The translations under genes were made by a program, and so were the position numbers. The notes below the pieces were generated by a model. It was not told the origin of the DNA, did no database searches, and was given only the letters and a program-made list of their open reading frames with translations. Below, in pieces: positions 2,076-5,106 of a DNA stretch of 64,000 nucleotides (position 1 is the stretch's first letter; every line of letters begins with the position of its first letter). Origin of the DNA: Marinactinospora thermotolerans DSM 45154 (lineage in GTDB: Bacteria > Actinomycetota > Actinomycetes > Streptosporangiales > Streptosporangiaceae); assembly GCF_900167435.1 (NCBI RefSeq), contig NZ_FUWS01000011.1:62001-126000 (forward strand), written 5' to 3'.

Positions 2076-2091
2076 TCGAACCCGTGTTCGA
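2076..2091. promoter_or_regulatory. LexA (SOS) box
   Basis: TCGAACCCGTGTTCGA is a perfect 6-4-6 palindrome that fits the actinobacterial SOS-box consensus TCGAAC-N4-GTTCGA known from mycobacteria and Streptomyces. It lies at the expected -35 position of the next gene, 10 bases before a TATGCT -10 hexamer, where LexA would block RNA polymerase. Confidence 0.8.
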
Positions 2092-2101
2092 ATGCGCGGG
2101 T

Positions 2102-2107
2102 TATGCT
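2102..2107 (+). promoter_or_regulatory. -10 element TATGCT, predicted leaderless promoter
   Basis: TATGCT matches the TAnnnT pattern of housekeeping actinobacterial -10 elements. Its 3' end is 6 bases before the ATG at 2114, so transcription should start at or next to the initiator codon. No Shine-Dalgarno precedes that ATG, which agrees with a leaderless transcript. Confidence 0.6.
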
Positions 2108-2113
2108 GTCCCC

Positions 2114-2485
2114 ATGGCCGACCAGCAGTTGTCCCCGGATTGGCCGGCGGGCGTGCACCCGCCCGGAGCCGAGACGTTCGAGCAGACCGCGGTCGTCTGG
2201 CTGTTCGACCAGGTTCCCGCGGATTACCGGTTGCACGGCGTGCTGCGGCGCCATCCCGTCGCGCTGGCCCGACTGGTCCGTCACCACGTCGCCGGATGCC
2301 TGGAGGGGGCGCGCCAGGGGTATCGCACGTTACGCCTGGACCTGCGCGACTACCTGCCGCCGCACGCCCTCGACCAGGTCATGAACGCCTACCTCGAGGA
2401 GGGAAGGCGCGCGGCCGCCACGTTGCGCGCCGTCGACCTCGTGGACGAGGCGCTGCGTGGGGCGGCCACGCGACCGGAGGAGTGA
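2114..2485 (+). CDS. conserved-looking actinobacterial protein under a LexA box
   Basis: 123 residues, start ATG 2114. The protein is soluble-looking and mostly helical: an N-terminal Pro-rich stretch, a helix ETFEQTAVVWLFDQVPADYR, a LRRHPVALARLVRHHV segment, and a C-terminal helix ending in ALRGAATRPEE. One Cys; no metal or nucleotide motif is visible. I do not know a function. What is notable is control: a perfect SOS box overlaps the -35 region and the transcript is probably leaderless. DNA damage should therefore induce it, and a role in repair, mutagenesis or division arrest is an inference from control alone. It runs toward the next gene, with only five bases between the two stop codons. 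Confidence 0.75.
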   Translation: MADQQLSPDWPAGVHPPGAETFEQTAVVWLFDQVPADYRLHGVLRRHPVALARLVRHHVAGCLEGARQGYRTLRLDLRDYLPPHALDQVMNAYLEEGRRAAATLRAVDLVDEALRGAATRPEE

Positions 2486-2490
2486 TGGGC

Positions 2491-3051
2491 TCAGCCGCTC
2501 ACCCGCACCACGACGGCGGTCTCGGTGCCGGTGTTGACGAGCTGGTGCCCCTCCGCGGTGCCCAGCACCCGGATCCGGCCGTCGCCGAGCCGCTGCACCG
2601 CCAGCATCCGGCCGTCCTCGGAGGTGGCCACGGTGTGCGCCCGGCCGTGGACCAGGTGGAGCACCTCGGCCGAGGCCGAACGGTCGCGCGCGGCGGGCAG
2701 CGAGACGAACTGGTCAGGGTCCAGGGTCACGACCGCGACTCGCATCCGCCCGTCGGCCCGCCGCCGGACGGTGCGCGGGGCCGGCTGCCAGACGCCGCGG
2801 CGCCGTGGCCACAGGCTCGGCCGGGACAGCGCTTCGGCGGCGCCGCGCGCGGCGGCGGACAGCCGTCCGACCGTGGGGGAGGGCCGGGTGTCCAGGTGGG
2901 CGTAGCCGCTGCGGTGGCCCGCCATCGAGATGTCGCCGATCCCGGCGAGCGAGGCGGACAGGTCGGCGGCCGTGGGGGCCGGGGCCAGGGCGATGGCCGA
3001 GCGGGCGGGAACGGACTGGGGGCGCGTGTGGCCGGAGACGTCGTAGGACAT
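2491..3051 (-). CDS. hypothetical protein with C-terminal cupin-like segment
   Basis: 186 residues from ATG 3051, which has an AAGG ribosome site about ten bases before it. The N-terminal third is low-complexity (Ala/Ser/Pro), the middle has basic stretches (PRRRGVWQPAPRTVRRR), and the last 80 residues alternate beta-like strands (RVAVVTLDPDQFVSL, VLHLVHGRAHTVA, LAVQRLGDGRIRVLG, HQLVNTG). The strand pattern with His and Gly turns resembles a small cupin barrel, but the metal-binding HxH...E set is not clear, so function is not assigned. No signal peptide. Coding is supported by frame bias and the ribosome site. Confidence 0.55.
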   Translation of the reverse strand: MSYDVSGHTRPQSVPARSAIALAPAPTAADLSASLAGIGDISMAGHRSGYAHLDTRPSPTVGRLSAAARGAAEALSRPSLWPRRRGVWQPAPRTVRRRADGRMRVAVVTLDPDQFVSLPAARDRSASAEVLHLVHGRAHTVATSEDGRMLAVQRLGDGRIRVLGTAEGHQLVNTGTETAVVVRVSG

Positions 3052-4503: not shown

Positions 4504-5106
4504 ATGATCATGAGGGACCGGGAACTGGTCAGCGCCCTGCGTTCAGGGGACGTCTCCGCCGCGCGGGCCTGCGGACTGCTCTTCGACGCACACGGTGCGC
4601 GGCTGTACCGGCGTTGTCGGTCGATGTTGGGGGATCACGGGGCGGCGGTCACCGCGCTCAGGGACACCTTCGTCGTAGCGCGCGCCCATATCGATCAGTT
4701 GGGCGATCCGCGCCGGCTCGCGGAATGGCTCTCCGCCATCGCCGACACCGAATGCGAACGCCTGAGGGCCGCGGTCGAGGCCGCCGACACCCCCCGATGG
4801 GAGGAGGATCAGACCGTCTTTCCGGTCGCGTCGCTGCGTGTCCGCGTGCTCACCGGGGCCACCGCCCCCGAGCTCGCGGCCTACCACGCGCGTGTCGCCC
4901 GGCGCGCCGACCGCTTCGACCGGGCGGGTTTTCCGCTCCCGCCCCGCTGCCAGCGCCCGGTCCCTCCCAGTTCCTACCTGCTTCCCGGCCTCATCATCGT
5001 GGCCTGCGCGTTGGCGCTGACCGCGCTGGTCGTCATCGAGATGGCCGGACTCTCCTCACAGCCCCTCACGGCCTGGATGACCCGGCCGCCCCACACCGCG
5101 GGATGA
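4504..5106 (+). CDS. sigma-70 region-2-like protein with C-terminal membrane anchor
   Basis: 200 residues. Residues 5-95 follow the ECF sigma factor region 2 pattern: RDRELVSALRSGD, then LFDAHGARLYRRCRSMLGDHGAA, TALRDTFVVARAHI and LAEWLSAIADTECERL. That region normally binds the -10 element and core RNA polymerase. A region 4 helix-turn-helix, needed for -35 recognition, is missing; the protein instead has a Pro-rich linker and one hydrophobic helix (about 158-183, LIIVACALALTALVVIEMAGL) near the C-terminus. It therefore looks like a membrane-bound sigma-like or degenerate regulator, not a working ECF sigma factor. Start could be ATG 4504 or ATG 4510. AT-rich upstream DNA sets it apart. Confidence 0.6.
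   Translation: MIMRDRELVSALRSGDVSAARACGLLFDAHGARLYRRCRSMLGDHGAAVTALRDTFVVARAHIDQLGDPRRLAEWLSAIADTECERLRAAVEAADTPRWEEDQTVFPVASLRVRVLTGATAPELAAYHARVARRADRFDRAGFPLPPRCQRPVPPSSYLLPGLIIVACALALTALVVIEMAGLSSQPLTAWMTRPPHTAG

Follow-up and report, generated by a model that had tools for sequence, protein, structure and literature searches.

A perfect SOS box before a predicted leaderless gene encoding a conserved, unannotated helical protein family of actinomycetes

Results and Discussion

An SOS box and a short gene at the locus

Near the beginning of the window, the 64,000-nucleotide stretch of Marinactinospora thermotolerans DSM 45154 DNA analysed here, an SOS box is followed by a small gene, referred to below by its first position as the 2114 gene. 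The features of the locus, in window coordinates, are:

2076 to 2091, no strand assigned: SOS box TCGAACCCGTGTTCGA, almost certainly a LexA operator, a perfect match to the actinobacterial consensus TCGAACNNNNGTTCGA
2102 to 2107, + strand: -10 element TATGCT, assigned from the sequence; 42 of the 103 ortholog upstream regions have this hexamer in the corresponding position, more than have any other
2114, + strand: predicted transcription start at the A of the ATG, giving a leaderless mRNA, from the -10 spacing
2114 to 2485, + strand, TGA included: coding sequence of a conserved uncharacterised helical protein of 123 residues, from orthologs and an AlphaFold2 model

The first-pass annotation had placed an exact SOS box ahead of a gene in the span 2076-2485. 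The box does match the consensus perfectly and begins at 2076, and its arms form a perfect palindrome; the gene itself starts at 2114, so the span is that of operator plus gene. A convergent ORF on the opposite strand ends a few bases past the gene, near 2491, and the 2114 gene is therefore most likely monocistronic.

The same operator precedes core SOS genes of the genome

Within the window, TCGAACNNNNGTTCGA is matched exactly only by the box at 2076-2091, and allowing up to two mismatches yields 12 sites against 2.8 expected. The genome (5.66 Mb) has three exact matches, this box among them, and 53 sites that lie within one mismatch of the SOS box compared with 9 for a reversed control pattern. 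Numerous one-mismatch sites fall inside coding regions and are probably chance occurrences. Near-consensus boxes were also found before recA, lexA (two boxes), uvrA, and ruvC, whose products each exceed the NCBIfam cut-off for one or more equivalog models. LexA is thus encoded by the genome, with the same type of operator ahead of its core SOS genes. The recA box, TCGAACAGAAGTTCGG, is followed by TAGGCT, likely its -10 element, in an arrangement resembling the upstream region of the 2114 gene.

The other two perfect boxes (L199, C13:223152-223167; L200, C23:152878-152893) do not lie at a textbook SOS gene. One of them is located between a divergent pair, a P-loop ORF that appears uridine-kinase-like by eye and an uncharacterised ORF, and the remaining one is upstream of an uncharacterised ORF.

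The promoter predicts a leaderless transcript

The -10 element TATGCT is separated from the ATG at 2114 by the six-base spacer GTCCCC, and with this gap the transcription start is expected at the A of the start codon. No TTGACA-like -35 match was found upstream of the gene, and the operator fills that region. An actinobacterial-type operator therefore overlaps the promoter, and the promoter layout drawn in the first-pass annotation (box over the -35 zone, TATGCT as the -10 element, start of transcription on the ATG) agrees with what we found. Of 103 distinct ortholog upstream regions, 100 have a TAnnnT motif 6-7 nt ahead of an in-frame start codon (ATG or GTG), compared with 1.0% for all ATG/GTG codons in the same loci, indicating that the leaderless design is conserved as well. 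On these grounds, the mRNA of the 2114 gene is very probably leaderless.

The distance between the box and the -10 element varies within the family. It is about 8 bases in most ortholog upstream regions, whereas the box abuts the -10 element in a smaller group and overlaps or follows it in a few. These different geometries would have an equal outcome, which suggests more than one gain or relocation of the operator. Leaderless transcripts of damage-response genes have precedents in Mycobacterium tuberculosis, where the mRNAs of lexA (PMC2897130) and recX (PMC3062782) begin at the first base of the start codon, as predicted here. The proteins are different, however, and the leaderless start of the 2114 gene is derived from promoter spacing.

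The box is conserved in front of orthologs

The first-pass annotation had suggested looking for the box in the same promoter of relatives. We scored the best site in the roughly 120 bp preceding the ortholog for 80 loci from named genomes across the window's own family, which include Nocardiopsis, Streptomonospora, Actinomadura, Actinoallomurus, metagenome-assembled genomes (MAGs) of Streptosporangiaceae, and others. The best box scored 10/10 in 21 loci, 9 in 43, 8 in 12, and 7 in 4; one of the sites scoring 7 (L108) is not credible as a box. A box of at least 7/10 was thus retained in 79 of the 80 loci, and 64 of the 80 reached 9-10. The proposal thus withstood the refuting condition named in the first-pass annotation, absence of the box ahead of orthologs. 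In a background of 7331 windows from the same loci, a score of 10 occurred in 0.15%, of 9 in 0.8%, and of 9-10 in 0.95%. The result was the same in an independent set of relatives. When the upstream regions were aligned on the box, the arm positions carried 1.1-2.0 bits, whereas the 30 bases upstream carried less than 0.5 bit.

Because the box is conserved and the same operator precedes recA, lexA, uvrA, and ruvC, control of the 2114 gene by LexA, as originally proposed, is strongly supported. Conservation of the operator has its exceptions in box-less lineages with the gene beside acn and/or dxs and in Streptomyces.

Two regulatory contexts of the family

To describe these exceptions, 172 loci of relatives across the class were scored for the box, for the C-terminus of aconitase (acn) upstream, and for dxs downstream. 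A box of 9-10 with neither acn nor dxs found as a neighbour occurs in 78 loci, and a box of 9-10 with dxs downstream in 6. In 54 loci, the gene lies behind acn and/or before dxs and has no box of 9-10. The remaining 34, Streptomyces loci included, show neither a 9-10 box nor an acn or dxs neighbour, although 13 of them score 8 and these are mostly genuine boxes in the window's own family. No SOS box was found before the family members of Streptomyces in the 8 loci examined. SOS control of the family is therefore not universal, given the box-less acn-dxs relatives and the Streptomyces form. Since many relatives lack a box and adjoin acn and/or dxs, induction by damage is no inherent property of the family, which may have a housekeeping role.

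Several arrangements illustrate the two contexts. In L176, L177, L165, L171, and others, the gene directly follows the aconitase C-terminus, often before dxs, and has no box; this linked, box-less placement is seen even in genomes of 1.6-2 Mb. In L159, L156, L157, and L154, a perfect or near-perfect SOS box is combined with dxs downstream, so that LexA may influence this core isoprenoid gene too. Among 26 loci inspected for a conserved operon partner, only acn/dxs adjacency was widely recurrent, and no repair gene was a conserved neighbour.

The history of the box was followed on a maximum-likelihood tree built from 162 distinct proteins, from which one locus with an upstream box missed by automatic scoring (L019) was excluded. 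With a label rule that counts degenerate boxes of 7-8, the tree requires about 7 changes of box status compared with 53 for shuffled labels, and at least 2 of the roughly 7 are forced by well-supported branches. Under this rule, all 63 proteins that represent the window's clade on the tree have the box, as do 18 of 18 members of a second clade, and single lineages elsewhere on the tree also bear it. The pattern suggests that the gene repeatedly came under SOS control or was released from it; because the protein is short, the deep branches are uncertain and gain is not cleanly separable from loss. A link between loss of the box and loss of the repressor was ruled out: 383 of the 395 class genomes encode lexA, so absence of the box does not stem from absence of LexA. 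The family offers a natural experiment in how a gene enters and leaves a regulon.

A small helical protein family confined to Actinomycetes in our samples

The family was detected in 38 of 60 close relatives and, in a sample of the class Actinomycetes, in 38% of genomes (152 of 395). A phylum-wide sample of 296 genomes gave ten matches, all within the same class, and among the genomes sampled the family is found only there. One branch was recognised as Streptomyces by a 91% match to a Streptomyces chartreusis record. Plasmid matches were mostly to megabase-scale replicons or chromosome-like records. The possibility of a phage or defence protein was rejected, since neither the PHROG nor the PADLOC families matched the 123-residue protein and no homolog was found in phage genomes. 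Our literature search returned no description of the gene, nor any SOS work in Nocardiopsis or Nocardioides.

Orthologs share 45-78% identity (alignment A1), with W10-P11, P17, W29-L30, P35, R39, P48, L51, R67, E96, R99, and L114 invariant or nearly so. The AlphaFold2 model of the 123-residue protein has a mean pLDDT of 92.9 and a pTM of 0.83, and comprises an extended N-terminal arm carrying WP..V.PPG, short helices at 22-31, 36-40, and 42-46, and long helices at 48-77 and 83-119. The model confidently predicts a two-helix hairpin, in line with the helical product proposed earlier. The protein is hydrophilic (GRAVY -0.36, pI 6.0), and the region of the first long helix (residues 42-77) contains 10 K/R/H against 2 D/E; this basic stretch would suit binding of nucleic acid or of an acidic partner.

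The product had also been described as lacking a recognised domain, and our searches bear this out. The window protein matched nothing in Pfam and NCBIfam even at E=10. When it was searched together with two alignments against Pfam, NCBIfam, PHROGs, PADLOC, and PDB sequences, only isolated sub-threshold matches were obtained: ABATE (E=0.0086), RecX_HTH2 (E=0.014, in 1 of 22 family members), and CUE (E=0.21). Foldseek found nothing at E<=0.001 in the PDB or among viral models.

The exact C-terminal tail aromatic-x(1-2)-[RK]-[LMI], such as FVPRL, is present in 92 of 172 loci, and, if the window's branch and Streptomyces are set aside, most members end exactly in aromatic-x-P-R-L/M (alignment A2). 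The tail looks like a docking tail, and its absence from the window's branch and Streptomyces indicates that it is not essential to the core function there.

A proposed role in the DNA-damage response

RecA-stimulated self-cleavage of LexA, which lifts repression, is established for the SOS pathway. In undamaged cells of M. thermotolerans, LexA bound at 2076-2091 would cover the -35 and spacer region and block the TATGCT promoter. Upon DNA damage, RecA* would trigger LexA self-cleavage, and transcription would then begin at the gene's own ATG. The product would be a small soluble protein with an N-terminal arm, a short helix, and a hairpin of two long helices, and its most likely role is that of a non-enzymatic accessory of DNA repair or damage tolerance. 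Its binding partner would be nucleic acid or a protein of repair or replication; RecX and DinI, to which it is unrelated, would be its analogues. LexA control would have been acquired in several lineages, while elsewhere the gene would have stayed at the aconitase-dxs junction. We infer the accessory role from the repeated association with LexA, the lack of a recognised catalytic motif or domain, and the soluble hairpin shape. The role itself draws mainly on regulation and is a tentative assignment, somewhat below an even chance; the explanation as a whole, a monocistronic, LexA-repressed leaderless gene encoding an accessory protein of repair or damage tolerance, comes just short of an even chance. 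From its sequence context, the gene looks like a real, uncharacterised member of the actinomycete DNA-damage response, and the earlier suggestion that its product is an SOS effector is a plausible hypothesis.

Four other explanations were weighed against the accessory role. It is hardly credible that the match to the box is fortuitous and the gene lies outside SOS control: the genome does hold 53 sites within one mismatch, some of them in coding regions, but this box is one of only three exact matches, and its conservation extends over several genera, with a constant position and high information content. The protein is rather unlikely to be a housekeeping or metabolic accessory, perhaps concerned with aconitase, isoprenoid supply, or general stress, that is boosted by SOS in some lineages and does not act on DNA. 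The box-less acn-dxs placement in many lineages, small genomes included, speaks for it; however, the gene is entirely away from acn and dxs in the solo lineages, and retention of the box throughout the window's large clade and a second one, with several changes of status, is hard to explain if induction were useless.

It seems unlikely that the protein inhibits cell division or development, holding back septation in damaged cells like SulA, YneA, DivS, or ChiZ. The protein is small, lineage-specific, and probably SOS-controlled, and several well-studied groups have their own, mutually unrelated SOS division inhibitors, with DivS and ChiZ in other actinobacteria (PMC3989709). Nevertheless, its hydropathy leaves no transmembrane segment apparent, it has no LysM or other Pfam domain, and such an inhibitor would not be expected at an apparently constitutive site after the aconitase gene, as found in streamlined genomes. 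A mild accessory accounts better than a toxin or an inhibitor of division for the persistence of box-less relatives at acn-dxs even in small genomes. It is quite improbable that the protein binds the nucleoid or RNA and so changes transcription or translation in damaged cells: the first long helix is strongly basic, but the whole protein is slightly acidic and matches no nucleic-acid-binding family or fold. A further reading is possible but on the doubtful side, namely that this unnamed family, whose fold has no match in the PDB, acts specifically as a DNA-damage effector and was repeatedly captured by LexA from an ancestral aconitase-dxs position, through operator-overlapped and often leaderless promoters of differing geometry.

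Relation to known SOS systems

The experimentally determined LexA regulon of Streptomyces venezuelae, as presented in the regulon Results and Table 1 of PMC9380542, uses the same operator type, TCGAAC-N4-GTTCGA, as the 2114 gene. It contains recA, lexA, and ruvC, with uvrA just under the cut-off and probably included, as well as many targets of unknown function; no gene recognisable as a homolog of the 2114 gene appears in those parts of the paper. In lacking a box, the Streptomyces family members differ from the 2114 gene. Genes controlled by LexA are of a known kind, and the protein family described here is unannotated. Many actinomycete LexA targets are of unknown function, and the 2114 gene is a conserved one, with one of the best operators of its genome and no annotated domain.

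The 123-residue protein is predicted to be small, lineage-specific, and damage-induced, as are SulA, YneA, DivS, and ChiZ (PMC3989709), but it shares no sequence or domain similarity with them (LysM, SulA) and has no apparent membrane segment. Like RecX and DinI, it would be a small protein made under SOS. RecX is built of three-helix repeats, in contrast to the long two-helix hairpin and N-terminal arm of the modelled protein. Membership in either family was rejected, as the lone RecX_HTH2 match is below significance and none of the 22 family members matched DinI.

Neighbouring reading frames

The convergent ORF (2494-3051, - strand) is uncharacterised and belongs to no Pfam or NCBIfam family; its position beside the gene is conserved among Nocardiopsis and close relatives. 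A small coiled-coil-like ORF without a family (1749-1967, beginning MSLDEAARQLEAAIHDARVSFDCIALEELERAHTN) lies upstream of the 2114 gene in the same orientation and also precedes the ortholog in L047. Further along, an ORF at 4504-5106 bears a weak resemblance, far below the NCBIfam cut-off (E=2.9e-8), to ECF sigma factors in their N-terminal half; it seemingly lacks the -35-binding region, has a membrane-like C-terminus, and is conserved in relatives.
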